From NCBI GenBank assembly GCA_963565915.1, contig OY751488.1, forward strand, positions 1-64,000: a DNA stretch of 64,000 nucleotides, in the 5' to 3' direction. The position numbers and the translations under genes are program-made. Positions 34,808 through 59,222 of the stretch are shown piece by piece. Source of the DNA: Entoloma clypeatum (Eukaryota > Basidiomycota > Agaricomycetes > Agaricales > Entolomataceae). Numbering within the stretch: position 1 is the first letter of the stretch; each line of letters starts with the position of its first letter. The notes under the pieces were generated by a model. That model was not told the DNA's origin, did no database searches, and saw nothing but the letters and a program-made list of their open reading frames with translations.

Positions 34808-35603
34808 TTAATCGGACCCTTCGGGAAAATCCTTCTCGTCGGCTTCTAAGATTGTGGTTTCATCATTCTTGGCATCTTCTTCAGACACCTTCCTAACCCT
34901 TCCGGAGTTCATCTTCAGCTTGCGGCAGTTGCGTGCAATATGGCCTTCTTGGTCGCAGTTGAAACACCTGCGACCATCTTTCTTCTTTGGAGCACTGCAG
35001 TCTTTAGCAAGGTGACTGACGCGTTGACAGTTGTAGCAACGGGCCACTCCTGCTTTGTCAATCTCCATGGCCTTGCCCTGACCACCATAAGTGGTACCTG
35101 ATCCAGTGCGCATGTTGCCGCCACCTCGGATGACCAGTGCATGTCCCTCCATCTGTCGTCCCTTGTTTCGGATCTCCTTTGCGTACTCGGAGTACGTCTT
35201 ATCCTCACTTGCCACTTGTTCAGAGATTCTGCGGTTGACGTTCTTTTCCAGGATGTATTTCCCAGTTTCTTCACCAAGGTTTGACAGCTTCAAGAGCTCT
35301 TTGAATTCGTCCAAGAATTTGTCAACAGTGCATTTTTCCTGTCTCAGGACTTCGAGTCTCGCTTTGGCAGCGACTGACTTGTTGGCGACAGAGAATCATA
35401 TTGCGATGTCCTCTGAGAATCCTAGCCAGGTGATGTTCTCGTTGTCAACAGCAAGAGCATCTAACTTGTTACTGGCCCAGTGCCTGCCGGACCCTTCCAT
35501 CATGTGGGATAGCACCGCAAGAATCTTCTGATCGTCTGTGAGGCTCTTCTGGAACCTGATGTATAGTTTGGTGGCTTTCCACCACTCGTCAAAGGTCACA
35601 TAC
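34808..35603 (-). pseudogene. Gypsy-A gag (copy 4), N-terminus lost
   Basis: Gag with the capsid-like segment VTFDEWWKATKLYIRFQKSL at the upstream end, an in-frame TGA near 35396 (IAI-stop-FSVANKSV) and two CCHC knuckles (CYNCQRVSHLAKDC and CFNCDQEGHIARNC) followed by an acidic tail ending DFPEGSD. Zinc knuckles bind the element RNA in related Gags. The coding sequence is cut at 35603 by the KDZ terminal repeat. Confidence 0.88.
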
Positions 35604-35708
35604 TCAACCTACACTGTATTGTAATATACGGTCTAGCGAACGCATACACTGTATGGTAAATTACGGAAGCAGCAAATTCGCTAGAGCACCAGCAAATTCG
35701 CCACGGCG
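35604..35708 (+). repeat. KDZ left terminal inverted repeat (105 bp)
   Basis: Matches the reverse complement of 49010-49114 with about three differences by eye, each compatible with CpG decay (for example AGCAAATTCG against AGCGAATTCG). It contains two imperfect direct copies of a 22-bp word starting TACACTGTAT (35610 and 35646). Confidence 0.93.
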
Positions 35709-35840
35709 AACAGCGACAGAATGAATGCAGCCGGCGACAAACTCAATGCAGCCGGCGACAAACTCAATGCATCCGGCGACAAACTCAATGCAGCCGGCAA
35801 CAACAATTCAATGTGGTTCAATATGGCCGGCGACAACCAA
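35709..35840. repeat. KDZ left subterminal repeats
   Basis: Four tandem copies of a roughly 21-bp unit around AATGCAGCCGGCGACAAACT, then degenerate copies. The inverted form of the same unit (GTCGCCGGCTGCATTGA) is tandemly arranged at the right end. Such subterminal arrays are the usual kind of transposase-binding site. Confidence 0.8.
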
Positions 35841-35931
35841 GGCTCATTTTATTGTAGAGAAGAAGGGTAGACATCTGTATATAGTATAATGTAATAACAA
35901 TGGTACCCCGCTATAGGCATATCACTCTGCA

Positions 35932-38179
35932 CCCTCGCTCTCCGATGACCCAGTATCACTCGAACTGCCAGGGACACGCACATCAGCTAAATCTTCAGCG
36001 GTCCAAGGGCGGCGTTGGAATTGAGCCCCAGGGGCATGGGCAAAGAGCCCCGGCGAACGAATGAGAGGGGGGGGTCCAGTTGGCTCACTATCAGAGACAT
36101 CGGAGTCGACACCTTCAAGTGCGCTGGCGACGTTGGCGGCAGTAGGTGCGTTGGTGATGGATCCACTGCTGTCGCTGTCGTTGTCAGTTTCGCCGTCAGT
36201 TTCGCCATCAGTTTCGCCGTCAGGTTCGCCGTCGCCGTGATTGTCGCCATCACTGTCGCCGTTATGGGTGCCGTCAGTTTCGTTGCTGCCATCAGCCTCG
36301 TTGTCGGCTTCATCGGAATCCTCAAGAGCCGCCAGTGCATTGTCAAATAGTGTTGACGGTGGGGTCCGCTCTGGTCATCCTCTATGTCACTCTCCTCCTC
36401 CTCTAGGACGTTCATGACAACGTCCAGAGTCTGATGATAGATTGCGGCGGAAGGAGTGACCGGGAAATCAATGGACAGTGAACGCCTTATTGGCGCAACA
36501 GGCTTCGGCGAAGGGTGGCACGGTGAAGACAGCGAAGATGGCGAAGATGGCGAAGGTTTGGACGGCGAAGGGTCGGCCGGCGAATGTTGGGATGGTGAGT
36601 CGGTGTCACTCATATCCTCCAGTGTCTGCATGACAAGGTGGAGAGGAATATCACCCGCAGAGGTCGCTTGTTCATCACTGATATCGCCCATGATAATGTC
36701 GACAACCTCCTCGTGATCGGCGACAGGTGATGTGGAGGTGGCCGGAGTTTGAGTTGGGGGTGACCTGGGGATTGGAGTGAAAATCAGTGAGTCACACTCG
36801 GCATCGAGAGCGGTGAGGGAAGGGGCAGGAAGAAAAGCAGCAGCGGAGTTGTCACCTGCCCCATGTGGCAGGTTGTCTGCCGGCGTGGCCGTGTGGGCTC
36901 GGCGAAGTGGGTACTCTCTGAAATGGTGGGGAATATCGAGGGTGCCGAGGTCGGTGATGAGAGATGGCGAGGCATTGGAATGGCGACCAATCATGTCCGA
37001 AAAGGGGGCCATCAGAGTCGTTACCTGCAAAACCGCCATCGGCTAGGGACTCGCCACACCCAGAATGCGGCAGCTGGTACTGGTTTTCTGCTGCTCTCAC
37101 CAGCTTCCTGATGTCGTCAACTTCGAGATCGACGCCCCAGGTCCACTTCAGGCTGGGGTGCTGCTGGTATCGGTCGCGTTCAGCCGCTGCAGTCTCCTGG
37201 ATCATGGTGGCCAGATCCTGGAGGGTGACTTTCTTGCTCCTCGGCCTACCTTTCCGTTGCGTTTGAGCGGTGGTTGATTTGCACATCGGCCGTGAGGATG
37301 AGGGTTGGGGAGTGGCCGCCGGCAAACCGGCGCGATTGCCAATGGTTGCCGATGGCTGATATGGTGGTCCTGCAATGTGTCCCCTTGCGGGTTCCAGGGA
37401 TTCAAGAGTCATGGCGTGCTCATAGAGCATGTTGAAACCACTAGCACGACGGATGGCCAAGTGCAACACATTCGCCGACGCTGTTTCCTGAGTATGAAGC
37501 CTGTTCGCCACCGCTTGGAGTTGGTGAGAGGTGTCAAGGGCCACGGCGCGGTACCCCGCCGCTGCCTGAGAGTTCAGAGAGATATGGGGAGGGGGAATTG
37601 ATGGATAGTCGGCAAGAGAGTGACCGGCGAATGGACCAGCGAATGGACCGGCGACAGTCTCGCCGCCCGGCGGGTGACCAAGCACGCCGTGGTGGACTTC
37701 GAGACACTGGGTGAGTGTGTCGACATCCAAAATCTGCTGGGGGTGCTCTGGGTGGTTCCACCAGTCGAGGTGGTAGTGCGGCACAATGCCAAATTCTTGC
37801 GTCGGGTGGGAGCTCCCATCAAGCACGGCTGACCAAGGAAAATGGGGATGAGCGTCGTTTCCATATCCACCCAGATCGGTGAACGACAGTGTGCGAGTGA
37901 TGATTGGAATGTCTATTGGCACTCCAGCACTTGCCGCCAGGCCAACAAAGCGCATCGACACGGCCTATGATATGTGAGTATACAGATTATTTAATCGGCA
38001 CATCAGCTTACCAATTCCGAGGCAAGTATATCCTTCATCCACCCATGCTGATTTGCCGGCGCCCGCTGGATACCGAGCAAAGCGGCACGGAAGCGTGACT
38101 CACAGTATGCAACTACTGTATTTGGATCGGGACGAGGAGGAGCAGTCATAAACGAAGTTGAGGTGGAGGAAGAGGGCAT
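35932..38179 (-). CDS. KDZ accessory gene A, function unknown, acidic C-terminus
   Basis: Exon 1 (38012-38179) starts MPSSSTSTSFMTAPPRPD. A clean 47-bp GT-AG intron (37965-38011) leads to a long exon with VSMRFVGLAASAGVPIDIPI and VPHYHLDWWNHPEH. A second intron is likely near 36930-37038. The C-terminal part is Ser/Pro-rich, then very acidic with DGET repeats (near 36200), ending SSSDTGSSESEGAE at the stop 35932-35934. Getting from the Pro/Ser part to the acidic part needs a one-base shift at a CCCC run near 36360, so the gene may be mutated, or a splice is missed. It includes FAG residues encoded by the element's TTCGCCGG motif. No domain recognised. Confidence 0.6.
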
Positions 38180-38316
38180 TGTAGTTGCAATAGACTGTGG
38201 GTGAGAAGAAGATGGCGGTAAATGTGACAGATAACAATGTGCTTATGCCATGTGTCACATCGTTACACATTACATGCATGTTTTTTTTCCTTATTTTATG
38301 TGTAAATGTGAAAACA

Positions 38317-41300
38317 CTACTCAATTATCCGCACATATGACCTTGTAGTACCCGCAAATTCATCTTCAGCATCTGTCACAAGGATCTGCCACATCGCCGC
38401 CTTTCTCGCTGCATGTGCCATGAGTCCCGGCGAAGCGGCGACTTGTCGCCGGCCGTCCCAAATGTCCCGTTGATGGATAAAATATCGGGTCGTCCAACCC
38501 ATCTCATATTGGACAAGGATGACTTCCTCCTCCCAGCGGTGGCTTCGTGCTCGTGCATGTAACCAATGAACACATTGGACTAAAAGGCGATCAGAAGATC
38601 CACGGCAACAATACACGGCGACTAACATTCTAGCACGGCCGCCGGCGATGTAGGATTGATACCCAGTTGCATCTGCCATATCCAGGACAGGCGTAGAGTT
38701 GTTGAACCCTGGATGTTGGGATCCAGAACAGCCGTGCTGCACTTCAGGTCGTCTCGGCTTAAAACCCGAAATCTCACCATGACGTCCAGCGAAGCTTGCA
38801 GCCAGCCGAGGGCCACCCTGCATCGTGTATATACTCGAGAATGGAAAGAAATCTGCTGATTGAGCTTGATGATCGCGGCTCGAGCTCGAGTTTTGACACT
38901 TTTCCGGGGTGCTACTCGGATGACATGGGAGTAGTGAAAGGATTTGTCGGCGATGATGGTGCGAAGTGCATTGAGATGCCGTGTGGCCTGCCTTGTTTGC
39001 TCGGCCACCTCTACAGCACAGTGAGCTTGATTGCGACCAGACGCAGTGGAAGGCAAGACAAGTGGCCGGTGTTCATGTGGGAGGTTGCCGGTGACAGTAT
39101 AGCGGCTGGGGACGTCGCCGTCGTCATCGCTCTCGCCTTCATGCTCATCATCATCAAGATCGTCAAAGGCTGTTGGATCATCTGATGTTGATGTATCTGG
39201 TGCCACTGTTCCCAGCACCCCAACCTGCTGTTGCAATGTATCGAGCACAGTCAGCTGGGATGTGAGATTATCTTGAAGGTGTTCAATCTGTTTTGCATCT
39301 TCAGGCCGAGGGTTCTTTTTCCAATGCCGGAGACGGTCCTCTAACTCAATCCTGCCCAGAAATCAGAAGGATTACAAGTGAGTGACACATAAAACACGCA
39401 CTGTTTCTCCTCGATATTGAGGGCCATTCTTATCCATTCTTCCACCGGGGTGTGCACCTCACTTGGCATTATATTGACAGGCTCCTCGGGCTCGGTTGTA
39501 TGAGTACATAGAATATCCATTGCCGTGACATCGGCGAGGCGACGTGCTTCAGCAGCTTTAATTTCTGTCTCCCAGTTGTTCACATGATCATGGGTGATTG
39601 CCGTCGTCATCTTAACGAAGTAGTCCGTCGTGGCATGAGACATTGATCTCGCCTGGACGTGTCGCCGGCACAAGACATGTACTGAGACCGGCGAAATGGC
39701 GAACATGTACCGGCGAAAGGATGGTAACCGGCGAAAGGAAGGACGGCGAAAGGAAGGATCGGCGAAAGGGAGGATCGGCGAAACAATGTCGGCGAAAGGA
39801 TGTCACCAGCGAAAGGAAGGACCGGCGAAAGGGATGATCGGCGAAAGAATTTCGGTGAAAGGATATCAGGGAAGAAATCGTCAGGGAAACAAGAAAGGGA
39901 TGATTGTGGAATACTTACCCATGTTCAACATCTTCTTGTGATTTGAGTCTGTTGCATGGTCATCAATGGTTTCGGCCCTATTTGCCAGTGTAGCCGTCTG
40001 TACTGTTGTTGTAATGACGTTCAAATTTGACCACAGAGTCTCGAGGATTTCACCGGCGGTGACGGCGCCAGGAATGAAGGACGTGGCATACCGGAAAAAA
40101 CATTCTTCCTTGTGGCCATGTACATGAAAGAGGCCGATAGCCCGGTCAAGCACCAGGCCAGGGGGGAGGAGGTGACCAATGCGGTCATAAAGGTAGACAA
40201 AGTATTGACAGACGATGTCGTAGATGATCATGATGATCTGTTCCACATCCACATTGCCATACTTGATACCCATAAGAAGAACCCAGTCAGCATTTTTTTG
40301 GCCCTCACCCTTGAACAGATTGGCAATCGTGTTGGGGACAAAACACCCATGCCGTGCACAGGCAACGGCGACGATGCCAGTGATGTCGCATGCCTTGGAG
40401 CCAAGCATAGCAAGCTCAATGGCACGAAACTGGTTCTCACATGGTGCCTTCTAGAAATCAATTTTTCAGCATCTCTGGGCTGTATAACAATGCAGAAACT
40501 TTCATACTGTGAGACGCTCTATGGCGGTTTTCAGGAATCCGAGATAGTCTTCATGCTTTGACATCATACCAGCACCCTCATCCAGCCACACCTCGCCGGA
40601 GGTTTTTTGCCAAACATGGTTGGCCTTGAAGTTGCCGTCGGCGACAAAAGACCAATTGTACACCCACCTGTGCATTTGATTCACCAAGGAACACGATATC
40701 GGGATGATGCACCTACCGTCGTGGATCCTCTTTCCAGTGTTCTGGGAGATTGATTCCTGGTTGGGGACATGCTGGACAGAAGTTGCCAAATTCGGCGGGT
40801 GCCGTCTGTTCGCCGGTCGCCGTTCTGTGGCCATGACCAGCCCACTTCTTCTTCTTCAACCAGCGCCAGATGCGCGACAGCCGAAGCAGTTCTTGATAGA
40901 GGTTGGGTGCCTTCAGAGGTGCCATGGGAAATGTGAGCCGACGAATCTTTTGAAAGTATTGGTATGCTGTGGCCTTGCACTCGAGGTTCGAAAGGCGGAA
41001 ATCATCCAGAACAGCGACAGAGAACAGAGTTCTGTACCGGATGAAGGTTGTTGGCACCAGGCGACAGTGCATCAGGTCACCGTGAACACTCTCCTGGCCT
41101 TGGCACTGACAGGTAACCAGCGCAAGATGATGGATCCCATTAGGGTGAAAAACATGCACATAGTGGTTGAGCAATGAGTCATGCTGGGGTATGGTGGGGA
41201 TGGAACTAGTGTGTGCCTCGGCGGCAGCTGAATCGCTGGCCGTTGAGTTGTCGGCGAAGGGCGCCGCCTTCAGGGGATTCTCGGCGAGATATCCGTGGCA

Positions 41301-42228
41301 TGGCATCAAGTTGCCGTCCTCATCGTCATCCTCGCCGAGTTCGGTACTTGGGTAGTCAGTATCATCATCGTCCACCCCATCGGCAGTAGGACCGGCGAAG
41401 GTAGTGTCACCGGCAAATGTAGTGTCACCGGCGAATGCATTCCCACCGGCGAATGCATATGCATCGTCATCGGCGAAGTTAGTCATTCTCACCGGCGAAG
41501 GTTGTCACCGTGAGTCGATGCTGTTCCTTCTCATCTTGCTGGATCTGAAGTTCTTCCAAGAATGTGACTTGCCATTCCAATGATGGGCAGAGGTCTGTGT
41601 CCAGATGATGCGGAACAAGAATGTATGTACCGACCTCCCACAAAGCGGCACGGCGAAAGAAACTACCAGTCCAACACTCAATGCGGTGCAACGGGTCATG
41701 TCGATGAGCATGACGCATGCACCCACGACAGAGTAAAGGTGTTATGGTACAATCTATGCACCTCCACACAGCTCTTTTCTCACCAGTGCATGTCTGGCAG
41801 TATCCACCAGCCGGCAAAGCTTCTCGGGAGAGTAGTGCGGCCAACAAGGAATCGGCACGATGGACAAATTCTTGCATCCAGTAGTGTTGCTTTACCATGC
41901 CTGTTAGTAATTATACTCGAGATCATTTATTAGCTGGTACCTTGTTTCTATTTGGATTCATGTCATCGCTCGCCAATCCTTCCCATCCAGCATCACCAAA
42001 AGGGCCATCTGGAGGGATCGCAACACTGACAGGCTCAGTGCTTGGACCTGCCTCGTCATCTGATTGTAGATTGGAATTGGTGGGCGGGTATAGTGGGACA
42101 TCAACATCTCGGGTAATTAGTCCTTGTCGAGTCGATACAGTCACCTTCTTTACTGTAACCACCTGATAATCCTCATCCTCATCATATACATGAATTCTCT
42201 TCTGTCGCTTTGATCGTCGGCTCGACAT
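38317..42228 (-). CDS. KDZ transposase, about eight exons, apparently intact
   Basis: Catalyses excision and insertion of the element; KDZ transposases have an RNase H-fold DDE core. The N-terminus is MSSRRSKRQKRIHVYDEDED. Exon 2 has the cysteine cluster typical of KDZ proteins (CQTCTGEKRAVWRCIDC, CRGCMRHAHRHDPLH). Later exons hold HPNGIHHLALVTCQCQG, NFCPACPQPGINLP, FVADGNFKANHV, ACARHGCFVPNTIANLF, YDIVCQYFVYLYDR, GLFHVHGHKEECFFRYA and GEILETLWSNLNVI, ending QCVHWLHARARSHRWEE. Likely catalytic acids are the Asp in ADGNF, the Asp in YDIVCQ and a Glu in GEILE (inference from the family). Introns placed by GT-AG and frame: 41890-41940, 40678-40716, 40451-40507, 39682-39918, 39352-39401, 38580-38636. 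The exon 2/3 junction (41.2-41.5 kb) is uncertain. No stop or frameshift is needed otherwise. Confidence 0.9.
39682..39918 (-). other. Transposase intron made of TTCGCCGG repeats
   Basis: A 237-bp intron, GTAAGT donor and TCTCAG acceptor on the minus strand; neighbouring introns are 39-57 bp. It is filled with about ten copies of TTCGCCGG/TTTCGCCG words. Its acceptor end and the following exon are duplicated in inverted orientation near 48480-48643. Confidence 0.8.
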
Positions 42229-42482
42229 TGAAAGGTTGGGGAGGATTGGTTCATGAGAGAGGATTGGTTCAAACGGGCAAAAATGCGACGGCGCATGGTG
42301 AACACATGCCCACAATGATCTCCGCGTGTTCACTTGTCCCTGCAAAAGCTTGTCTTCTATCATTTTTGTACATCATCAATGATCAAAGTATTAAACATGT
42401 GTTCACGAAAATCACTAAAGCAATATATGTCCAATGGGTTCCATCAAGGATGTTTCTTGAATAATTCCACGTCCCACCACCC
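42229..42482. promoter_or_regulatory. Divergent promoter region between KDZ transposase and gene C
   Basis: 254 bp separate the start codons of two genes transcribed away from each other. No clear TATA box. It holds the AT-rich stretch AAGCAATATATGTCC (about 42418-42432). A shared promoter is inferred from geometry only. Confidence 0.45.
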
Positions 42483-44584
42483 ATGTCCGACTTTGTGCCA
42501 CAAAGGAAGCCTCGAGCCGACTGTCAGTACACGGCAGAGGAGCGAGCCACCTTTCAACATTTCAAGCATGAGTACCGCTCTGCAACATCCTCAGCAGCAC
42601 GCCGCGAGATCGTAACTTCAATCTTGCTCCCACTGCTCAACTACTGGACACAGAATGGGGATGTTCCAATAGAACCAAAGGAAGTGAAGGAGCGGACTGA
42701 GGTATGAGTTGGACTATATATGTGTGTTGCAGGATTAATTAACCATAGTACAGAGACTTGCAAAGTGGCTCCGGAACAACTGGAGACCATTTGTGACCAC
42801 AAGGGGGCAACATGATTGCAAGGTGAGTAGACTGGAGGTTGTGTGGCAGGTGAAGGGGAATGAGGTAAAGGAGGAAATGAAGAGGATGCTTGGTGTGGAG
42901 AATCTGAATCTTGCACTCCGAGCACATTTTGGACAGAGGTTGAGTGCCGCAAAAAATATTTATGAAGCCATGGATGCCGAGGGTAAGAAGGAAATCCAAA
43001 TTCTAGTGGACCAGCATCAGGAACAAGGTAATCCTCCTGAGGTACAGCGCTGGTAAGTCTTCGCTGATTGCAGTGTACACACCTAACCACGACAACAGGC
43101 TAGCAAAGTCCAAGGCAACCCCGAGAGTGGAGGATTTCTCCACAAAGTGTTGGCGTGAGATGGGTGTAGTGACAATGACATTCTATGGGTACCCGAGAGA
43201 GGATGGGAAATACAGAATAATGTGGTGCGTCATGTTCGCCGGTCGGCGACAGTTTACAAAACTGGCTAACTGGCTAAAGTCATGAGGACTCAGCGGGACT
43301 GATGGGTAAAAAGGCACCGTCATTTGTGGAGAGCAAGGCCACCATGGTGAATGAGATGTGCCGTTTTTTTGGGGAGTATGTTAAGGGCCTCAAACATGTG
43401 CCGGATGCTGGAAGACTGACTCCGGCGAATGCTCCGGCGAATATTGCGGCGAATACTCCGGCGAATGGAAGACTGACTCTGGCGAATGGAAGACTGATGC
43501 CAGCAAATGACAGACTGACTCCGGCGAATGCAACTGATCAGCTGGCCGTCGCGGCGACAATAGCCCTTTCGCCGAATGGGTTTCCCCTCGTTCCCGATGT
43601 CTCTTTTGGAACAATGACCAAGGGTCAGCTTGAGCACTTACTACGCGAGTTCTTGTCCAAACACTACTGTAAGCGAGTTTGTTCTCAATCGAGTGCTGCT
43701 GATTGGAAGTATGACAGCTCTTGCGTCGGCTGGCCGTACTAACCATGTGCCATTTGGGACTCTGGCAGCTAACACGCGACTCTTGGTGGCAGCTGAATAC
43801 CTCCCACAGGGGTTCACTATCAAGGATCCACGAAACCTGCACAAGAAGGAGATCGAGGCCTTTTTTGAACACGTCAAATCAAGGCAGGATCGACATGGTG
43901 CAGGCAAGGCATTTCGCTTCAAGAAGATTGTCGACAAGGACAGACACGAGGTGGAAAGCCAATACCCCATACTAGCAGAAGCTCAAAGGGGACGGCGAAG
44001 GCAGAGCCGATCAGCAAGGAATGGCCTGCTTGCTGTCCCAGATCAGCGCCATCGCAATAGCGTCTCACAGGGGAGCGGAAGTCATCGCGCGTCTGATACA
44101 GAATGGCCCAGTGGAAGTGAGGGGACGGCAAGCAGTCATATAACCACCGGCGACATTCGCCGTGTTCGCCCCATTGTCGCTGAGGGCAACTTCGCTGATG
44201 ATCCATTCGCCGTCAGGAATGTCACCGAAGAAAGGTTCGCCGGTGATGTCGCCGAAGGACCTTTCGCCGAAGAACATTTTACCAAAGGTGTCGCCAGTGA
44301 CGGATATGTGACTGTAGGTCAAATGCAAATGAATGAACTCGTTCTACAGGGCATGATGGTCACGGCGCCGATCAATGGCCCACTGGATGGTGACCCACAG
44401 TATAGTGTCCCAGCCTCTGCCGTACGAGCTTTGATGTTGAATCGAGCAAACGACTCAGTGATTGATCCAACATTGATTACACCAAATGGTAGGATATTCA
44501 TGTTTCTGATTTTGAATTATCCCCATGCTAATAACTGATTCAGATCACTCAAATGGCCTTCGCCGTTCCAAACGACAAAAGTAG
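42483..44584 (+). CDS. KDZ accessory gene C, function unknown
   Basis: Exon 1 (42483-42701) begins MSDFVPQRKPRADCQYTAEE. Exon 2 (42754-43052) has RLAKWLRNNWRPFVT and QRLSAAKNIYEAMDAEGKKE. Exon 3 starts at 43099 (TKCWREMGVVTMTFYGYP). One junction near 43.23-43.29 kb is uncertain. The next exon (MGKKAPSFVESK, FFGEYVKGLKHVPDAG) splices near 43671-43730 into LASAGRTNHVPFGTLAANTR, IKDPRNLHKKEIEAFF and AFRFKKIV. A final 55-bp intron (44489-44543) gives a short basic tail ending LRRSKRQK. The pattern resembles expanded, transposon-linked agaricomycete proteins that I cannot name. Exon 5 encodes several FAD/FAG/FAE motifs from the TTCGCC word. Basic tail and context allow a nuclear role, which is inference. 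Confidence 0.7.
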
Positions 44585-44751
44585 TATTGCCTTTCATACA
44601 ATACATACATGACAAGCAATAAGAAAATCGTAAAACAAATGAAAGCGAGTTGAATGGATATGTGAATAAAAAATAAAAAATTCGCCGGCTGTGTTCACGC
44701 GCGAGACCGCTTTCCCCTAGTCGTGCTGCTGTCATCCCCACCCTTGCGCTT

Positions 44752-47277
44752 TCATCCACGTTTCCCCTCAGATGACGCTGTACTGCCTGATGCAGATGGC
44801 AAATGTGAGTGGTCGCTTAGCCGAGGACTTCGCCGAAGCGCATCGGCAGGCAAGGCGGCGAGGGTCACCGGACGAGTGTCGGTGGTGTCGGGCACATCCT
44901 CTTCCGTCACAGATTCCTCCTCTGCGACGACAGCCATAGGACTCGCAGGTGGGGGGGGGATGAGTTGCACCGTGCCTTGCGCCGTCTCCTGGGATGTCGT
45001 TGGTGTCGGCGTGATAAGGTTGACTGCAGGGGGAGCGACGACAGGGTGGGAGACTGCAGGAGGGGCGACAACGGGGTGTGTGACGGGGTGGGAGGCGGCG
45101 GTGACGGTGGCAGCGGCAGTGGTGGTGGTAGTGGTGGTGGAAGTGACAGCTGGGGGCGACGGCGAGGGAGAGTCATCCCGGCGACTGACCGGCGAATGCC
45201 CAACGGCGAAGGAAGCGGCGTAGGGGTTGTCCGGCGAATGACCACCGGCGAATGGCACTCACCGAGATGGGCCAGGCGTGGCCCCAGAACCTTCGGCGAA
45301 GGGCTCGGCGAAGGATCCGGCGAAGGGTGGTCGGCGCGAGGCGCGAGGGGTCGATGACGGCGGGTCACTCATCGTCGATGGCCGTCGCAGGGGCGAATCT
45401 TGCCATGCACCCTTGTCCTGCTGCCACCCCCCCATCTTGTAGTGCTCAGGGTCCATCCCCTCGGGGTCCGCAGGCCAGAGGCGCTCTATGTTGACTTCTG
45501 GTGGTGGGGGAAGGTAGGGTCGCCAGTACTCGCGGTCGTCGTGGGCGGGACGGCGGTCGAAACCCAGGTAGTTCTCGATGTCCGTCAACCTGACGTTCAA
45601 CCCCTCTATTGTGTCCTCCATGTACAACAGGCGGGAGTACACGTTCTCCTCCTGCATCGCCAGCTGTGCATTTGCCCCCTCAAGGATCCGGTTGAAGCGG
45701 TTCGTGAGCTTGTTGATCTGCCCTTCGAGTTTGAAGAGGGCGCCACTCTGTGTATGGTATGCCCGCTGCGAGATGGTTCCCTGCTGGCGGAACCAGTCCA
45801 CCAGGTATAGCTCCACTGCCAGGCCAGACTGCATGAGATGATGTCCAAGAAATGATTCAGTATAATTACTCACGCGCATCCGTGAGGGCGGGGGGCAGCG
45901 TCGAACGCGCCGCCAGCGAAGTGTCACCCCTGGCTTTGCCATCACCGATGGGTCGTCGCTGGGAGGTGGTTGCTCCTGGGCCAGTCGCCACATCGCCGTT
46001 CTTATCTTCGTCGTCCTCATCGTCACCGTCCACCTCTGTCTCTACCTCCACATATTCAGTTGCCTTCGTCGCCTTCTGCCGTGGTGCCTCCTTCGCCGGT
46101 TTCGCCTTTCGTGACGCACTGCGGCCCTCCATCTTGGTCTTCTTCTCCCTCTGAGGCGCCTCGCCACCAGTCAGGCATTTCCCCTTCAGCGTGTAGCAGG
46201 CATAACACGCTGCAGCAAACTTCTCCTTCTCACACGGCTGCGCCTTCAATTTGCACCTATCGCACGGGATGTCGTTGTATTCGCCAGTGTGGACAGGGGC
46301 TTGCTGAGCGTAATTCCTGCGGCCTTGCGTCGTCTTGCCTCGGGCTGGTGCCGGTTGCTCGTCCTCGTCACTGCTTGAAGCCACGGTTGGCTTCGACCTC
46401 AGCGTCATCTTCGCAGGTGCGTCCTTCGCCACCTTTCCCGTTCCTGCCTTTGCTGCACCCACTATCTTCTTCGCCGGTTGCTTCGCCGTCGCCGTTGTTG
46501 TCGCCATTTTCTCATTTGCCGTCATTATTGTTGTCGCTGTCGTTTTCGCCATTGTTGTCGCCGTTATCTCCTTCGCTATTTCTGTCTTCTCCTTTGCCGT
46601 CGCCATCTTCTCCTTCGACAACTCGTCCACCTCCATCTCCTCTGACCCCCCCCGCTGGGCTTCCCCTGTCTCCCTTGATCGCCTGCCATTCCCCTCCCCC
46701 TCCTGTTCCTTCGCTGTTTCCTTTCCCTTCGCTGTTTCCTTTCCCTTCACCGTGTGCTTTCCCTTCGCCGTGTCCTTTCCCTTCGCCGTGTCCTTTCCCT
46801 TCGCCGTCTCTTTTCCCTTCGCCAGTTCTTTGCCCTTCGCCGTAAGGGGGCGTGGTGTTGGACGTCCACCCGCGGCTCCTGTCGGCACATTGCTTGGCCC
46901 AGCCAATGGTGCAGTGACAGGGGCCGTTGCCTCTTGTACCCGCAGGCTGTCGAACGTTGCCAGGGCGAGGCATTGACCTTCCAGAAACCCATCCTCTTTG
47001 CGCTTGTGGGCCCAGGACACGACGAACTGATTTATCCAGGCGAACCCGGCAAACGGTGCCGCCGGTTGCCCCGCCGCTTCCTTGAACAATTTCAACTGTT
47101 CGTGAAATACGTTAGAATCGGGTCAATACAACGGCTCCAGGGGTTACTCACCAACTTTCCCTTCATCCCCTTTAACCCTTCAATGATGGTCCCATCAGCC
47201 ATCCCCTTGCGAATGGTGGCATCGAAACGGGCGAAGTCGGCGACAATGTCTTCGGTCTTGCGGGGAGTAGCAGACAT
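44752..47277 (-). CDS. KDZ accessory gene D: putative DNA-binding protein with Zn2Cys6-like cluster
   Basis: Four exons: 47153-47277 region (MSATPRKTEDIVADFARFDA), 45874-47095, about 45260-45815 and 44752 to about 45180. Exon 2 has a Lys-Gly-Lys-rich repeat (AKGKETAKGKDTAKGK) and then DIPCDRCKLKAQPC followed by ACYACYTLKGKC. The spacing C-x2-C-x6-C-x8-C-x2-C-x6-C fits the GAL4-type binuclear zinc cluster, whose members bind CGG/CCG triplets. Unlike most such factors the cluster is mid-protein. Exon 3 is a predicted coiled coil (LEGQINKLTNRFNRILEGAN, MEDTIEGLNVRLTDIENYL), a likely dimer interface. The C-terminus is Pro/Thr-rich and ends ASSEGKRG. The 78-bp last intron itself consists of TTCGCCGG repeats. 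All junctions keep frame; it looks intact. A regulatory role for the KDZ motif is my hypothesis. Confidence 0.75.
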
Positions 47278-47467
47278 CTTGAGGGCGGTGTTGTGGAAAT
47301 GTGTTGGTAGTAGGTAGGTAGATGAGTTGGAAACACGTGTAATCGCCGCTCGCCGTTGAATAAACAAAAAAAAACAAACTTTTCTAACACGTGACTACTT
47401 CCGCCCTGATCATTGTGATGATCGGCAACCTAATTCCCACCGGTCGCCTTCTTTTCTGCTACTCCTC
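47278..47467. promoter_or_regulatory. Divergent promoter region between KDZ genes D and E
   Basis: 190 bp between the two start codons, transcribed outward. It contains an A-rich run (AACAAAAAAAAACAAAC, about 47361-47377) and tandem TAGGTAGGTAG near 47313-47322. No TATA box seen. Shared promoter inferred from spacing. Confidence 0.45.
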
Positions 47468-48297
47468 ATGTCTGCCCCATCCCACCAACCCCATCGCGAT
47501 GTGCCGCCGGGCTATACAATAGATACCACCCCAGATGGGCACGAGTATCTGGTGCCAAATTTCCTTGTCCCTGCCACGGATCTGGCCCTGAACATGGCAG
47601 AGATGCAGCGCTCTCTTGATGTGGAGCACGCCGCAGGAGGGGTGAGCTGTTCCCCATACCACCCACCACCACATTCCTTGACTCCATCCACCTCATGTGT
47701 GCGGATGAGCATCGTCGCCGATATTTGTTGGCCGACAAGTTGTCGCCGGTCATTCGCCGATGCTCTTCGCCGGTTATTCGCCGTGCAGTGTTCGCCGGTC
47801 TTGTTTGTCTTGTTCGCTGGTCTTTTCGCCGAGCAGCCTTTTGCTATGTTTCGCCGATCAGCGTCTTATTCATCCGGCTGACCTCCTTGCTCCTCAGCCC
47901 CTTTCTATGGAAGCCCTGTCTTCAGGCCTCATCAACCGGGGTACTGTCCCAGCACCCGCTGTACCAGTATGTCATTTCCCTCCCCTGTGTGTTTTGCTCT
48001 CACCGCTTTCTATAGGGTTTGAGCCATAGAGAACTTCTCGTGCTTCATGCGGAGGTCAAAGCCCTCCAGGCACAGCTGGGCATCAGCTACAAGGATGCTG
48101 CACACCGTCTGTACCATGCAGAGGTACACAGGATCCACACCCTTGACACTTCCCGGCGCCAGGCGGCTGACACCCGGCGAATGGTTGATGAGATGGTCAG
48201 CGACAATATCGCCGACAGGATCATCAATATAGATCGTGGGGCAATGCAGGAACAAGATGGGGAGGGTGCGGGTGGGCGGTTGGGCGATGGGGAATAG
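47468..48297 (+). CDS. KDZ accessory gene E, about 180 aa, function unknown
   Basis: Three exons that join in frame at GT-AG sites: 47468-47641 (start MSAPSHQPHRDVPPGY, then DGHEYLVPNFLVPATD), 47898-47966 (PLSMEALSSGLINRG) and 48016-48297 (GLSHRELLVLHAEVKALQAQ, then helical HRLYHAEVHRIHTL, ending GGRLGDGE). Intron 1 is 256 bp and rich in TTCGCCGG words; intron 2 is 49 bp. No recognised domain; the last exon looks alpha-helical. Divergently paired with gene D, which suggests co-expression. Confidence 0.7.
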
Positions 48298-48339
48298 GTA
48301 CATTAGGGGTTGCAATGTAAAATAGGATAACGTGAAACA

Positions 48340-49009
48340 CCTCCTGGTTTGTAACAGATGACTGTTGTCGCCGGCTTGATTCCTCGCCGACATCCTTTCG
48401 ACATCCTTTCACCGACATTCTTTCGCCAATCCTTCCTTTCGCCGCCCTTCCTTTCGCCGGTAAACCTTTTCGCCGGTCCTTCCTTTCGCCGGTGACCATC
48501 GTTTCGCCGACCATTGTTTCGCCGGTACGTGTTCGCCGTGTCGCCGGTCTCAGGACATGTCTTGTGCCGGCGACACGTCCAGGCGAGATCAATGTCTCAT
48601 GCCGCGACGGACTACTCCGTCAAGATGACAACGGCAATCCTGGTGTCGGCCGCATTGAGGGCCGCATTGAGTTTTGTCGCCGGCCACCTTTCGCTGGTCC
48701 TTTTCAACCTTTTCGCCGGTCCTTCCTTTCGCCGGTGACCATTGAGTTTTTTCGCCAGCCACGTTTCATTTGAGGGTCGCCGGCTGGATTGACCTGTTGT
48801 CGCCGGCTGGATTGACATCGTCACCAGCCAACATTTGACTGTCGATTGATGTGTTGTCGCCGGCCACATTTCATTTGACTGTCGTCGGCCGATCGTTGTC
48901 GCCGGCTGCATTGACTGTTGCCGGCTGCATTGAGTTTGTCGCCGGGGGCATAGAGTTTGTTGCCGGCCGCATTGACTTGTCGCCGGCCACATTTCATTCT
49001 GTCGCCGCC
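48340..49009. repeat. KDZ right subterminal array
   Basis: About 670 bp dominated by TTTCGCCGGT and GTCGCCGGC(T/C)(G/A)CATTGA units, several dozen motif copies by eye, in both orientations but mostly inverted relative to the left subterminal array. The stretch 48530-48643 is an inverted copy of the transposase intron-exon border at about 39590-39700. ORFs here are repeat artefacts. Confidence 0.85.
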
Positions 49010-49114
49010 CGCCGTGGCGAATTCGCTGGTGCTCTAGCGAATTCGCTGCTTCCGTAATTTACCATACAGTGTATGCGTTCGCTAGACTGTATATTACAAT
49101 ACAGTGTAGGTTGA
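49010..49114 (-). repeat. KDZ right terminal inverted repeat (105 bp)
   Basis: Reverse complement of 35604-35708 with about three differences. The outermost bases are ...CACTGTAGGTTGA-3'. The adjacent flank CTACCTGCG does not repeat the left flank (CACATAC). Confidence 0.93.
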
Positions 49115-49563
49115 CTACCTGCGAGACTTATCGAGCCATCGCTAAATGAGTTATTCAATTGTTGTTTGGAAGAGTCGCATCCTGAGTGATCCCACTCATC
49201 ACCCCGAACTATATCGATTGAGAAGTACACATCGCGAGACTTGTTCGGTCTTCGTTGTTGTGTTTGGTGTTTGTGTGTGTGATAGAGATATCGCTCGCGC
49301 TCATCCCCAGACTCACTTCCTTCGTTTCATCTGGAGCCCACCGCGAGGGGTGGTTCTAAAATAACAAATTTACTCAGTATCGGCTCGATACAGTTCCTCT
49401 CAAGGAATTAGTTATAGTTCTCGCTTGAGAGATAACCCTGTCCTCTACAAGCAAACCCACTGTTGCATCTAGCAGCAAACACGTTAAAGCAAACTCGTGG
49501 AAGCCTCCAGTTCATAAAAGAGGTCTCGCGAGCGGTCATAACCCGAAGACAACATCTCTAAAA
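49115..49563 (+). other. Gypsy-C 5' leader / truncated 5' LTR
   Basis: No ORF of note. Carries several TCGCGAG words (near 49231, 49343, 49523). Presumed LTR/leader because it lies directly upstream of gag, but no matching 3' LTR is in the window, so the LTR end and primer-binding site cannot be fixed. Confidence 0.5.
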
Positions 49564-51468
49564 GTGTCATCTTCAAAAGCAACAAATTCACAATCTATTG
49601 AAACGGCTCGCGAGCGCGTGACCCGTAGTCTATCGAAAGCAGGGGCAGAACTAGTAGGACCTCTCGAAGAGCCCATAAAGCATACTCGAAAGAGAACACT
49701 AGAAAACCTTGAATTGGAAAGGCTACTAGCATCGCGAGAGCATTCAGTATTCATTGTGCAACCAATAGAAACTCAAAATCAAAATCTTAACAGTCAATTG
49801 TCGACATATACAATGGCTACAAATACACAGAATGTTGCAGCAACTGCACCAAGGAATGGTTTGAGAATGCCACGTCGAAGTGAACGAGGAGCGCCGAGAT
49901 TTGATAAAGAAAAAGCCTCCGAGCTTTTAAGATTTATTGATGAAGTCGAAATCTGCTTTGACCACGCAGGTATAACCGATATCGTGGAAAAGAAAAAGTT
50001 AATCGGAGGCTATGCAGATAGTGTCTCTGAAGAAGAATGGACAACCCTCGATTCCCACGCTACAGGAACATGGGAGGAGTATAAGAAAGAGTTAATAAAC
50101 AACTACCCAGTGGTAGCGAGCAGACACGACGGTACCTTGGCCAGATTATCGAGTATCTGCAAGGAGCACAGTCGTCTGGGACTAGGAAATCTGGATGAGC
50201 TTATGTCCCTAAAACGTAGTTTCAAAGCCGAAGCTAAGAAACTGACTGGTGCGAATGGTTGTATCTCCAATCGTGAGCTAGTGGGGAGGTTCTTGAGTTG
50301 TTTAAACGACGACTTCGCAGAAGCGGTCAAGTTGAGATTGTCCATGGTGGACACCGCGGCCACAGCAAATAATGCCGCAGCACCTGCAGTGAGACATCAG
50401 GATAATCTTGTAGACTTGAGTGTCGTAATAGAAATTGTCGAGAAAATGGCGAGGCACCATAATGGTTTCACTGCTTCCAATAATTATACGTCGCGAGCCG
50501 CTCCCTCCAATGTCGCTATTCCTATGTCCAATCCGTCATCGGCGGTAAAGATCAAGCAAATGCTTGAGTCTGTGGTGCAGAGTCAGGCATTGTTGACCGA
50601 TAGAGTTGAAGGCTTCGAGAAATCTACGCAAGGAATTATGAAAACGCTTCAAGCGATGCAGGCAGGCCCTCAGCAACAGTACAAACAGGAACCGTGAGCG
50701 GCACCCAGTGGTGGGGCGCCTCTGGGATGTTGTCACTATTGCTACAAGCCGCACCATTTCCTTCGAGAGTGTACTGAACTTCAGACGCATCTAGCGCAAG
50801 GAAAAATTAAAGCCACCCCACAAGGGATCCGTTTGCCAGACGGAGGCTACATTCCTTGTGAGCCTAGTAATATTAGTCAGAAGGATCGGGTAGAACAATT
50901 GTCGGCCAATAAGCAATTGTATCAAGGATATTTCGAAGACGAGCAAGCTCCTGGCCTACTCAACCTTGCGCAAATACAGGACAATTCAGACTACTCTCTG
51001 TTTACGAATAAGCCTCGCGATCAGCGAGACGGGAATCTGCGGTTGATGCAAGAAGGGATGGCCAAGCGCGACCAACAGATCGTGGCATTGAACAATCTCA
51101 TAGCACAACAACAGGCCGGTACGGCAGTCCCACCGTTAAACCCGGTTCAGCAGCCATTTAATAATTTCAATATGTATACGCAACCATACAGTACTGCTCC
51201 GGCGGTTCCCGTGCACTATACCCCAGTTCAGAATTCTTTTATGTCTGGAATATCAAACCCAGTTCCCCAGAACGTGGCACTGCAGAATCGAGTCGCGATG
51301 CCGGGAATGATGCCAGTCCAGCAACAGTTACCCATCAATGAGCCTGAGGGTACTTCGGGAAAGCCCGATATGCAGGAAGCATTCCTCGCGATGACTAAAG
51401 CAATGCAGGACATCAGTCAATTCGTAGTCACCCGATCGGGGAACGCCAAGAAGGAATCGGATTTTTAG
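49564..51468 (+). pseudogene. Gypsy-C gag, one in-frame stop
   Basis: The first part (49564-50697) includes PRRSERGAPRFDKEKASELL and FIDEVEICFDHAGITD, then the conserved helical Gag segment. A TGA at 50695-50697 precedes a CCHC knuckle (CHYCYKPHHFLREC) that continues in the same frame. After it come IKATPQGIRLPDGGYIPCEP and a Gln/Pro/Met-rich tail ending RSGNAKKESDF at 51468. The knuckle and flanking GYIPCEP box are familiar from this agaricomycete Gypsy group. The frame is otherwise open, so the stop is probably a point mutation. Confidence 0.82.
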
Positions 51469-51510
51469 AACATTTGAGGAAGGCGAAGCAGATTCCAGCA
51501 AGGTCTAGGG

Positions 51511-52755
51511 TTGAAAAGAATCATGCCAAATCGCCAGAGAAACGGACTGAAAAACCGAGACCCAGATAGTGAAACAGAAAATGAAATAGAAAAAGATATT
51601 GAAGAAGTCGAGGAAGTAGATAGCGATGATGATGAGGCAGAACCTGAGTTAACGCCGAAGCCATCGGCCAAGACAAAGTCTGTCACCCAAAAAGATAGTG
51701 ACCGAGCGTTTACCCGCGAAGAAGTCACTAGACCAGCAGTTGATTTGCCGTTTCGTGATGTATCAGAAGTCGCTTTCGTTCCCCTTGGTAAAAATAAAAG
51801 ACCCGACCGCGAGACCATCCCCGATGTTGATTGAAAGGGACCAGTGTTTCGCAGCAAGGCACCTATCGAAGAACAATCGAAGGGTGTCGTGGTCTCGGCA
51901 GTGCTCGAGACTCCGATCACGATTGCATTGGGTGATTTATTGAGGGCAGATAAAGTAGTACAAGAGGAATTGCGAAAGCTATTGACTAGGAAGAGAGTAC
52001 CTGTGAACGTTCGAGCGTTGAACCTGCTAGATTCAATGGACGACAGCCAGTTGTCATATTGGAAAAAGTTTGCCCAAACAAACGAACTAGAAGATATAGT
52101 TAAAGTAGATGAATTGCCAGTGGCGTCGTTCATGATCATGGAACAGACTATAAACAACCTACCTGTCGGTTCAGTGGTCGTCTCGGACCCCGTCTTACAG
52201 TATCTCGAGAGTTTGCCACCTGGGACAGCACCTAAACCAGTATATGTCGCACAGGAATCGCAGAGTCTTCGGACAGTAAGTGCCGTGGTGAATGGAATGA
52301 TGGAAGAACAGTGTATTCTTGATGGAGGCTCCCAGATCGTCTCGATGTCAAAGGCTGCAGCCATCGCGATGAGGCTTTCGTGGGATCCAGATATATGCAT
52401 CCATATGCAAAGTGCCAATAAGCAAATCGAAAAGTCGCTGGGACTATCGCAAAATGTGCCGTTCCGTTTTGATCACATTGTAGTCTATCTGCAGGTCCAT
52501 ATTATAAATGAGCCAGCCTATAGAGTGCTTTTGGGGCGACCTTTCGATGCGGTAACTTGTAGTAATTATCAAAATGATAGAGATGGAGGACAACTCCTGA
52601 CCATCAAGTGTCCGAATACTAGTCAGAAGATCATGATCGCGACGTCGGAACGAGGAAAGGATCCTGATCTATTGAAGAGGAAACGGCCCACCACTGAAGC
52701 AGATGGTACGGGTTTTCAATCTTTGATGAACTGGTCGGCCACCAGGGAGAGATAA
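51511..52755 (+). pseudogene. Gypsy-C protease-containing region
   Basis: Two frames in the same phase separated by a TGA at 51832-51834: an acidic linker with an EIEKDIEEVEEVDSDDDEAE stretch, then IEEQSKGVVVSAVLETPITI and the protease part (QCILDGGSQIVSMSKAAAIAM, LLGRPFDAVTCSNYQND). The usual D-[ST]-G is D-G-G here, followed by SQIVSMS. This group commonly shows LDPG[AS]Q at the site, so the difference may be family divergence plus mutation. Confidence 0.75.
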
Positions 52756-53703
52756 TTATAAACATCGATTCTAGCGATATCGAGAGACCATATATAATGG
52801 CTTATGGCATTGCGGAAAATGGAAAATTTACGAGAGACGAAATTAGAGACCTGTATCTCGAAGCGTCGCGAGATAGTGTCGCGGACGAGAACGCACAGGT
52901 CCTTTTAGGGGCATATTGGGACGGAAAATCGAGGGAACATCCAGAATGGCTTTGCGATGACGAACAAGAAATATTAGACCAATATCATGGTGGGATTGTA
53001 CAAGTGCTAGCGGGTAAGAAATATAAACCCGTTGACAAAAAGGTGCGACCAGTATTGGGAGAGTTGTCCAAGACATTTCGCATAGTTCGCGAGATAAAAG
53101 GGGACCCCCTTGCGGAGTTACCAAAGTTGAACCCAAAACCACCGGGGTTTGCGCCCAAGGGTCGCTACACCCAGGAAAGGATGGAGCACATGGACAGTAT
53201 ACACAACCATGATTTTCTCTGGAAAGAAGAAATGAAACTAATACATCATTTATTGAGTGAACAGAATCAGGCTTTTGCATGGGATGATTCGGAGCGTGGT
53301 AGCTTTTGCGAGGATTTCTTTCCTCCGGTACAGATACCCATGGTACCGCACACTCCGTGGGTACTAAGAAATATTCCTATTCCGCCTGGGATACATGATG
53401 AAGTGTGTAAGATAATAAGGACGAAGATGGCCGCGGGCGTGTACGAACCGTCGAATTCCTCATACAGATCCCGGTGGTTCTGTGTATTGAAAAAGGATGG
53501 CAAGAGTCTCTGTATCGTACACAGTCTAGAACCGTTGAACCAAGTCACTATAGCACATTCGGGCCTTCCCCCGGCAATGGAGGAATTAGCCAACCATTTT
53601 GCGGGACGTGCTTGTGGTGGAATGTTCGATCTCTATGTGGGATATGACAAGCAAAAGTTAGCGGTCCAGTCTCGCGACTTGATCACATTTCAGATGCCAT
53701 TCG

Positions 53704-53893
53704 GTGCTCAAAGATTGGTTACTTTACCAATGGGTTGGACAAATTCGGTACCAATCTTTCACAATGATGTTACACATATATTGCAAGATGACATACCTGA
53801 TGTTACTATTCCCTATCAGTGCTCAAAGATTGGTCACTTTACCAATGGGTTGGACAAATTTGGTACCGATCTTTCACGATGATGTTACACATA
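53704..53893 (+). repeat. 115-bp tandem duplication inside Gypsy-C RT
   Basis: GTGCTCAAAGATTGGTTACT...CCCTATCA (53704-53818) is repeated from 53819. The second copy is interrupted at 53893 by the Tc1 element and finishes after it (56433 to about 56472). The copies differ at several bases. 115 is not divisible by 3, so the duplication shifts frame. Confidence 0.85.
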
Positions 53894-54133
53894 CAGTGCC
53901 TCACAAAACTGATTCAATGTTTGCTACTTTGTGAATACCTTCAAAATAACTTTGCAAATAATGCCAATCAAAAGAAGGTATTGGTACCTGGTTAAAAGCC
54001 CTGCTTCAGGACTCTCGGAATCTGCAATAATTATGTAATTCCCATAAAAGATGATCAATATATGATCAAATTACTCCAGGGACTCATTGAATCAGTTTTG
54101 TGAGTATGTACAATAAATACAGTATTTTATACT

Positions 54134-55191
54134 TTAGTACTTGGTAATACCCCCCTTAGCTTTGATTACTGCCTCTACCCTTCTTGGCATACTTTCTATC
54201 AGGTTTTGACACACTTCTGGCTCTATATTATTCCACACCTCTGCTGCTCTGTCCCAAATCTCCCAGACTCCCTTGGGTGGTGTTGGATATTCATTCAACT
54301 TCCTTTTAATATGAACCCAGAGGTGTTCAATAGGATTGAGGTCTGGGGACTGTGCAGGCCAATCCAGCAGGGCAATATTCTTGCTGTCCATCCATTTTTT
54401 GGCCTTCTTGGAGATGTGCTTGGGTCATTGTCCTGCTGAACAATGATCTCCTCTTCAGAGATTCCACTCTCCTCCATGCTGGGCAGCAAATTGTCCTCCA
54501 AAATGGACACATACTGATCAGCATCCATCCTCCCCTCAACCTCTGCAAGTCTCCCCACACCTTCCCAACCCATACAACCCCAAACCATAATATTTCCTCC
54601 CCCAAACTTGACTGTGCCCTGAACCTCTCTTTCAATAAGCCCCTCACCCTTCTTTTTCCAGACCCATTCCTTGCCATCTGACCCAAACCTGTTGATTTTG
54701 GTCTCATCTGACCAAATAACCCTCTTCCAGTCCTCCACTGTCCATTCCCTGTGCTTCATAGCAAATACCAACCGCCTCTTCCGATGTATGGCCTTTAAGA
54801 AAGGTCTTTTCTTCTTTGTTACAGCCTTGAATTCATGTTTTCTGAGAACCCTTCTCACAGTTTCTGGGGAGACAGGATTGGAGATGACAGTGTTGATGTG
54901 TTTGGTAGCCTGCACAGCATTGGAGGCTCTCCCTGAGGTGATTTGTGAAAGTATGTTTCGTGTGTTGGTGGGAGAAAGCTTGGATGGACAACCACCAGAA
55001 GAGAGATTGCGATGAGGAAGAAGATTCTGAAGCACTCTGGAGACAGTTGGTTGGCTGACACCCAGGTTACACAGGTGCGTCAGACCAATGTCCCTCTCGG
55101 AAACATTGTGAACAAATGATAATCTAATATAGTATTTTTTAAGTTGGTAAATGATGTGACCATTGATTGGAAACATGTTATATAAGCACAA
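54134..55191 (-). pseudogene. Tc1-like transposase, frameshifted
   Basis: Cuts and pastes the element. An N-terminal helix-turn-helix part (GVSQPTVSRVLQNLL) is followed by the Tc1 catalytic core: RVIWSDETKINRFGSDGKEW (first Asp), KFGGGNIMVWGCMGW, IIVQQDNDPSTSPR (second Asp), then a frameshift near 54390-54400. The C-terminal part reads LLDWPAQSPDLNPIEHLW (Glu, about 34 residues after the second Asp, so DD34E) and ends VIKAKGGITKY at 54134. The frameshift makes it inactive. The far N-terminus overlaps the left arm of the inner inverted repeat, so the original start is uncertain. Confidence 0.9.
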
Positions 55192-55988
55192 GCTCAGCCA
55201 TCAATGTTTTCACGAGACAAATCTTATGGAAATATTGAATAAAGTTATAATTTTTCATACAAGATTCCCATGAAACACATAGGGATAACATTCTGCATAA
55301 GATCTGTTTGTTTATTCTTTTTTTGTTCAAGGTTTGATTGCATGTGTGCTCGATGAATACACACCGATCAAAGTCTTTATGTTTTCTCCATGTTCTCGCC
55401 ACGTACATAAAGGCCCCATGGACAAAGAACACTAAATATAAACTTGCAATGAGCACAATATTGACTTATTGATCACATCAGAGTTATATAATAAATGTGC
55501 CCATTGTGTTTGTCAGAAAAACAGGAACACAAGTAGAACATTAATTATCTCAAGTGGAACATTGATCATATAACCTTTGTGTGAGGAACAGTTCTATACT
55601 AGGCTCACTGTGACTTTATATTTAGTGTTATTTGCCTATGAGACCTTTGTGTACATGGCGAGAACATGGAGAAAACATAAAGACTTTGATCGGTGTGTAT
55701 TCATCGAGCACACATGCAATCAAACCTTGAACAAAAAAAGAATAAACAAACAGATCTTATGCAGAATGTTATCCCTATGTGTTTCATGGGAATCTTGTAT
55801 GAAAAATCATAACTTTATTCAATATTTCCATAAGATTTGTCTCGTGAAAACATTGATGGCTGAGCTTGTGCTTATATAACATGTTTCCAATCAATGGTCA
55901 CATCATTTACCAACTTAAAAAATACTATATTAGATTATCATTTGTTCACAATGTTTCCGAGAGGGACATTGGTCTGACGCACCTGTGT
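55069..55988. repeat. Inverted duplication inside the Tc1 element
   Basis: Arms 55069-55443 and 55611-55988 are near-identical inverted copies around a 167-bp spacer. Each arm contains the same short ORF (RTWRKHKDFDRCVFIEHT), 55178-55456 minus and 55577-55879 plus. I take these as repeat-borne frames, not genes. The right arm duplicates part of the transposase 5' region. Confidence 0.88.
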
Positions 55989-58900: not shown

Positions 58901-59222
58901 ATAAAGGTGGAGCATACATCATCGCGGAACTGGATGGGTCGGTATGGCATGAGAAGGTTGCAGCATTTAGACTCGTTCCCTACCATGCGAGACGTGCCAT
59001 TGCAGTCCCTAAAGGGGTTTTAGACTTCATCGATATTACAAAAGCGACATTGGAAGGATTGAAAAATTCGACCAAGACTGCTAAGGACAGCGGTGAGGAC
59101 CTGTGGTTCGACGGAACGAGGCTGTACATAGATAAGAATGACAGGTTTGAGGATACGCCTCGCGAGGTTACCGTGGATGATGCAGGGGCAGTCTCAGACA
59201 AGGATTCCAGCTCGGATGATGA

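Follow-up and report, generated by a model that had tools for sequence, protein, structure and literature searches.

The window analysed here comprises positions 1-64,000 of contig OY751488.1 of Entoloma clypeatum (64,000 nt of a genome of 60.08 Mb), and it contains a DNA transposon of 13,525 bp (35597..49121) which, from its transposase and its ends, is a Kyakuja-type KDZ element. This element is densely filled with copies of a short word, CCGGCGAA/TTCGCCGG, whose unit is (A/C)CGGCGA(A/C). The dense motif is a solid observation, now confirmed and stronger than could be shown by the initial annotation, which was made from the letters of the window. We propose, at a probability of roughly 0.4, that the copies are binding sites for a protein of the element's own family, and that this protein would coat and open the element in the manner of the VANC proteins of Arabidopsis VANDAL transposons.

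Counted over the window, the 8-mer CCGGCGAA/TTCGCCGG has 35 copies in the element (21 + 14), from 36050 to 48728. The initial annotation had suggested a comparison with shuffled and Markov backgrounds. Markov models of order 1, 2, 3 and 4 predict 0.49, 0.86, 6.8 and 18.7 copies, the high orders already including most of the CCGGCGAA motif, and 300 dinucleotide shuffles of the element gave a mean of 0.46 and a maximum of 3. With 35 copies against 0.49 expected, an origin in base composition is ruled out. The neighbouring elements had been said to hardly hold the motif, and this is borne out: the remaining 50.5 kb of the window have none, a number that, with 0.76 expected, represents no depletion. 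Over the whole genome CCGGCGAA is found 1736 times (831 + 905), compared with 1270 for the reversed word, so that its density is 0.029/kb there and 2.6/kb in the element, a difference of about 90-fold.

The most over-represented 6-mer of the element is CGGCGA/TCGCCG, with 126 copies for 7.5 expected; the 50.5-kb flanks have 16 for about 11 expected. This 6-mer is the true unit, and it prefers C or A before it and A or C after it. The outermost arrays, whose units measure about 21 bp, are made of a variant, CGGCGACA, that is also found internally. The motif had been taken for half of a palindrome. That reading is ruled out, since the full 12-base palindrome, TTCGCCGGCGAA, occurs nowhere in the genome, and the motif is therefore a single oriented site.

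There is good support for the view that the motif acts at the level of DNA, as many sites belonging to the element family. The sites lie on both strands and in several reading phases, in subterminal DNA, introns and exons, and where exons carry them they are translated as FAG/FAE, AKGK, PAN or DGE. Selection at the protein level is therefore insufficient by itself, and protein repeats as the sole cause of the motif are ruled out. Nor is the motif one repeat copied around, since nearly all of its contexts differ: in the majority sequence of 11 copies, the 48 sites give 47 distinct 24-mers, with 41 distinct 6-mers on the left and 40 on the right. Array length varies among copies; examples are an array of gene C, which measures 82 to 154 bp and changes in 18-bp steps, and one of the transposase exon, which measures between 82 and 190 bp. 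In the seven arrays that we place in exons the length modulo 3 has its commonest value in 67 of 70 copies measured, and in the six non-coding arrays in 27 of 44; the three exonic exceptions, the window copy being one of them, concern an array of gene A once and that of the transposase twice. Because the exonic arrays keep their value modulo 3, the coding frame limits the arrays and does not create them. For annotation, this means that a DNA word shapes protein tails which would otherwise be taken for protein repeats. The element had been described as saturated with the motif; this holds for introns, subterminal DNA and exons, and fails at 42231-42482, the divergent intergenic region between the transposase gene and gene E, and in the first 745 bp of gene E (42483-43227), both of which have no CGGCGA at all.

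The same association is seen across the genome, where the family has 18 near copies at 92% identity or more (the window's included) as well as fragments, and divergent places at about 64-78%. A domain search for KDZ families gave 118 matches. It had been asked in the initial annotation whether other KDZ copies keep motif positions or density. All ten of the other near copies read have kept the density, with 17-39 sites each in the DNA that aligns with the element and a single site in 28.7 kb outside it, and their arrays differ in length. Pairs of CCGGCGAA spaced 4-34 bases apart number 213 in the genome (103 + 110), against 0 + 0 for the reversed control. For 97 of the 100 that are listed, a marker of the family (the transposase, an end or gene C) is found no more than 10 kb away, which is true of 2% of random points; the other three are at C1:136657 and C2:2241299-2241337.

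Two further kinds of locus were seen. A region at C1:135763-140284, away from family markers, holds 21 copies of CCGGCGAA within 4.5 kb, of which the 14 on the left are on the plus strand and the 7 on the right are on the minus strand, and is probably a shorter element that uses the same word; spacers like its own are found at C1:4800090, C1:5285756 and C2:1311444. Two short elements, C1:358939-363318 (4.4 kb) and C5:354858-360240 (5.4 kb), retain the two ends of the family together with the motif and parts of gene C, show no transposase match, and are likely non-autonomous.

In the two divergent relatives read, which belong to the same transposase lineage, the CCGGCGAA motif has been replaced by ACCGGCA. 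One of them, D (C9:3459500-3473600), has homologues of the transposase, of gene A and of the start of gene E; identity to the window family is about 30-38% for genes A and E and about 77% in the KDZ core. It has no CCGGCGAA, and ACCGGCA occurs 26 times, for 0.72 expected, in a 7.3-kb part that includes the gene A tail, where D has ACCGGCA arrays at the same place at which the window family has an array of its own. In the other, L053 (C6:1654200-1660600), ACCGGCA occurs 6 times for 0.5 expected, all in the transposase part, and CCGGCGAA is again absent. The two words have CCGGC in common. A single CpG-to-CpA step turns ACCGGCG into ACCGGCA, and some ACCGGCA pairs in copies of the window family were probably made in this way. 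As an account of D, simple decay of CCGGCGAA was rejected: CCGG is retained there, and of 27 cases of ACCGGCA 14 are followed by C and 4 by A. The genome has 60 close ACCGGCAC-ACCGGCA pairs, compared with 8 for the reversed control, and 149 plain ACCGGCA pairs, compared with 63. Twenty-five of the 60 ACCGGCAC pairs are no more than 20 kb from a divergent KDZ place (random points, 0.5%), and an ACCGGCA or ACCGGCAC pair stands within 10 kb of at least 7 of the 11 divergent places. Among the CCGGCGAA pairs listed, which cover five such places on C1-C6, none is within 10 kb of a divergent place.

Which protein would read these sites? The initial annotation had suggested many sites for an element-encoded protein. 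The DNA-level, family-linked sites are as it had supposed, and binding by a protein of the element is likely, to judge from the sequence. The product of gene C is, from its cysteine spacing, the candidate that best fits a CGG-containing site and thus a putative binder: the spacing CX2CX6CX8CX2CX6C (46175..46264, minus strand) fits Zn2Cys6, and a stretch behind the cysteines looks, by eye, like a coiled coil. Zn2Cys6 proteins read CGG triplets. The products of genes A and E, which are present in both families, are equally possible binders. No match to PF00172 (Zn_clus) is listed for gene C, in a scan whose HMMER filters remove the majority of matches above E 0.1, and no solved structure was found to be related to it. 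A single-sequence model of the six-cysteine region has a mean predicted local distance difference test score (pLDDT) of 54 and is of no use.

The element copies are likely methylated by the host, because CpG changes dominate their divergence and the genome has cytosine methylase matches, at C6:2405146, C5:4043368-4044526 and C12:4157314. Outside the motif, singleton changes per site amount to 0.36 at CpGs and 0.037 elsewhere, about a tenfold difference; 96% of the CpG changes are C-to-T or G-to-A, and individual copies have lost 9-31% of the CpGs of the majority sequence.

The portions of PMC5735166 and PMC10398659 that bear on VANDAL elements describe a dense family-specific motif that grows in tandem and stands in one-orientation runs in introns and upstream DNA. 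In the same portions, VANC is an element-encoded anti-silencing protein, and related VANDAL families have different motifs. This is the nearest analogue, and one that would be unrelated by descent in the view proposed here. The Entoloma element is like VANDAL21 and VANC21 in motif density, orientation runs, tandem evolution, the change of motif between relatives, and the presence of several genes per element. It differs in that KDZ is not a MULE transposase and in that the VANDAL motif is AT-rich, whereas the motif here is GC-rich and has two CpGs. No relative of VANC was recognised in the element.

On the reading that we favour, a protein of the element (that of gene C with its six cysteines, of gene A or of gene E, or the zinc region of the transposase) would bind the motif sites. 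The end arrays would take part in end recognition and synapsis, and through the internal arrays the protein would cover the element over its full length, so that it would stay open in spite of host CpG methylation. Motif and protein would change together between families. Anti-silencing is, in our judgement, the most interesting interpretation that the data would allow, and a speculative one. A wider suggestion, which we regard as doubtful, is that fungal KDZ elements may have evolved self-recognition and anti-silencing independently of VANDALs, with a dense motif private to each family and a protein to match it. On this suggestion, given the two CpGs in the motif, methylation would erase sites, chemically at once and later by mutation, so that each copy would be in one of two states, bound and open, or methylated with its sites being lost. 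If it were true, family-private dense motifs would be a convergent strategy by which large DNA transposons of plants and fungi distinguish their own DNA from other DNA in a host that methylates, and a second, sequence-specific route would be added to the TET/JBP genes for which KDZ elements are known. The words are directly testable (CCGGCGAA, CCGGCGAC and ACCGGCAC), the candidate proteins are few, and related families with other motifs offer specificity swaps.

In maize Ac and Spm, subterminal sites for the transposase or for an accessory protein, TnpA in Spm, are not known outside the ends or long terminal inverted repeats (TIRs). The Entoloma element resembles these in having a short site repeated near both ends in mirrored orientation, and it is unlike them in that its sites extend over most of 13.5 kb and into exons. 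TnpA is named in the relevant part of PMC10398659, and Galileo and Herves (PMC3688188, PMC3143072) are further elements compared here for such sites. The sections on Kyakuja in PMC12730594 do not mention a dense motif, and the word "subterminal" occurs in them 0 times. A literature search for a dense motif in KDZ elements found no earlier report, and among other elements none closer than VANC.

Several observations weigh against a VANC-like function. The motif is missing from the region between the transposase gene and gene E, where an activator or an anti-silencer would be expected, and it is common in exons, whereas VANC sites are mainly non-coding. Motif CpGs decay at the rate of the remaining CpGs when four-base contexts are matched (odds ratio 1.00, with a bootstrap range of 0.86-1.15); existing copies therefore have no visible protection from the motif. 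Shared substitutions are fewer at the non-CpG motif positions (1 of 263) than elsewhere (144 of 10,389), a difference that is not significant (Fisher P 0.27). The gene C protein has no match to a known domain, and its homologues were detected only in the near family, none of them near the ACCGGCA-type relatives. Neither gene C nor gene E has a homologue in the protein collection searched, which may hold few fungi; for gene C this again counts against the proposal. Finally, 35 of the 60 ACCGGCAC pairs are more than 20 kb from divergent KDZ places, and 4 of the 60 are within 10 kb of near-family markers; the replacement of one word by another is seen in two motif classes, with 2 of the 11 divergent relatives read.

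Three other explanations have to be considered. The motif may be a subterminal recognition repeat of the transposase, used in transposition only, with the internal sites as overflow produced by tandem or segmental duplication of subterminal DNA. This we consider possible but rather unlikely. The ends are dense and mirrored, with units of about 21 bp (24 CGGCGA in 826 bp, or 29/kb, at the right end and 6 in 325 bp at the left end); part of the transposase gene, in the region of its intron array (39596-39725), recurs in inverted orientation and at 92% identity in right subterminal DNA (48510-48639); and the two short elements without a transposase match have retained both ends and some motifs. 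However, the internal sites stand in almost all-different contexts, and the gene A tail of D has arrays of another motif, a finding not expected if sites had merely spilled over from the ends. Moreover, the outermost arrays are rich in CGGCGACA, and the left 325 bp have no CCGGCGAA. It is plausible, as the initial annotation had it, that the density exceeds what the transposase needs at the ends.

The variable lengths of the tandem arrays and the low density of CGGCGA in conserved parts (5/kb in the KDZ-core exons and 1.4/kb in the N-terminal stretch of the transposase) would also be expected of a word with no function, a minisatellite-prone, GC-rich sequence that slippage and gene conversion have multiplied and that disordered protein tails can accommodate. 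The decay of motif CpGs like any others, and the lack of significant constraint at non-CpG positions, fit this too. It is nonetheless an improbable account in our view: isolated sites stand in unique contexts, the motif is tied closely to one family genome-wide, and a related but different word takes its place in the relatives. We give very little credence to the idea that gene C encodes a transcription factor which switches on the element's genes through a CGG-containing motif. The cysteine spacing, the coiled-coil-like stretch and the known reading of CGG by Zn2Cys6 proteins speak for it, but the intergenic region of the transposase gene and gene E has no motif, that of genes C and D has only 2 CGGCGA, and gene C is without a Pfam match and undetected outside the near family.

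The limits of the element had been placed at 35604-49114, and comparison of the ends with three other copies corrects them to 35597-49121. A left inverted end (35601..35725, plus strand, 125 bp) is 94% complementary to the right one (48993..49117, minus strand). In all four copies with both ends examined the termini are CACATACTC..GACTACCTG, that is, 5'-CA..TG-3'; the outermost bases of the two ends are not alike. Genome-wide, 40 of 160 candidate end matches were scored. A target-site duplication of 7 bp is present in two of the four copies, exact in C14a and with 6 of 7 bases in C11a, and is lacking in C2b and in the window copy. For the latter, 35579-35603 and 49115-49139 have no matching duplication, and this copy may be recombinant or rearranged. 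The part of PMC12730594 that treats Kyakuja (Kojima) gives it a KDZ transposase, CA..TG ends and 7-bp target duplications, and describes Kyakuja-1 and -2 of Laccaria as being without TIRs. The Entoloma element agrees in transposase, termini and duplications, and it differs from the two Laccaria elements in its inverted ends of about 125 bp. We call it Kyakuja-type because we take these inverted ends as variation, the TIR-less description covering two families.

The transposase, on the minus strand, has a KDZ core exon (39881..40450; PF18758, E 1.2e-31), a CxC2 exon (40713..41504; PF18803, E 5e-16), whose 5' end has an array of 18-bp units at 41391-41500 read as FAG, and an exon for a B-box-like zinc region (41479..41910; PF22586, E 3.4e-6). 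Outside the transposase nothing exceeds the curated Pfam cut-offs in the 20 open reading frames (ORFs) of the element that were scanned, out of 85 of at least 80 amino acids, and none of the 20 matches a TET/JBP dioxygenase. A genome profile search with PF20515 was silent, but so were all of its controls. Three weak Pfam matches in ten of these 20 ORFs (TrAA12-like, HEPN and RtcR) are below the curated cut-offs and were taken as chance.

Gene and exon models are provisional, splice signals having been read without RNA. From the left, an array with the CCGGCGACA variant in 21-bp units (35713..35836, plus strand) is followed on the minus strand by an array in the 3' part of gene A (36183..36275, 12-bp units read as DGE), another in the gene A region (36490..36592, 15-bp units) and the main ORF of gene A (36852..37964, 370 amino acids), which has no Pfam match and a homologue of about 30% identity in D. 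As the initial annotation had noted, the motif is found in a transposase intron, in an array (39686..39868, plus strand, 16-bp units) that lies in and beside the intron and has inverted copies in the right subterminal region. Gene E (42483..44560, plus strand) has the motif in an intron (43235), the third in our model and not the first as had been stated, and an array at 43419-43530 read as PAN. Gene C (44752..47277, minus strand) has exons at 47277-47152, 47095-45874 and 45815-45263, a motif-rich intron at 45150-45262 and a final exon of uncertain frame; its second exon has an array of 18-bp units read as AKGK (46708..46843), and the FAG/FAE assigned earlier to its fifth exon falls in the third. 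In the gene D region (47469..48295, plus strand), with two ORFs lacking a Pfam match, an array at 47740-47860 is read as intronic, in agreement with the earlier description. The right subterminal arrays (48404..49010, minus strand) have periods of 15, 16 and 21.

The element is surrounded by retrotransposon-like ORFs (reverse transcriptase, integrase and protease, of RVT_1 and RVT_2 types) and a match to a Tc3-type transposase. In the retrotransposon-like DNA at 49122-64000 the palindrome TCGCGA occurs 35 times for about 3.1 expected, with one site only between about 53.7 and 58.7 kb, and is possibly another dense element word. At 8182-10439, just ahead of a Copia-like (RVT_2) pol ORF, AGGTATA/TATACCT is found 64 times, in tandem units of 82 and 180 bp.

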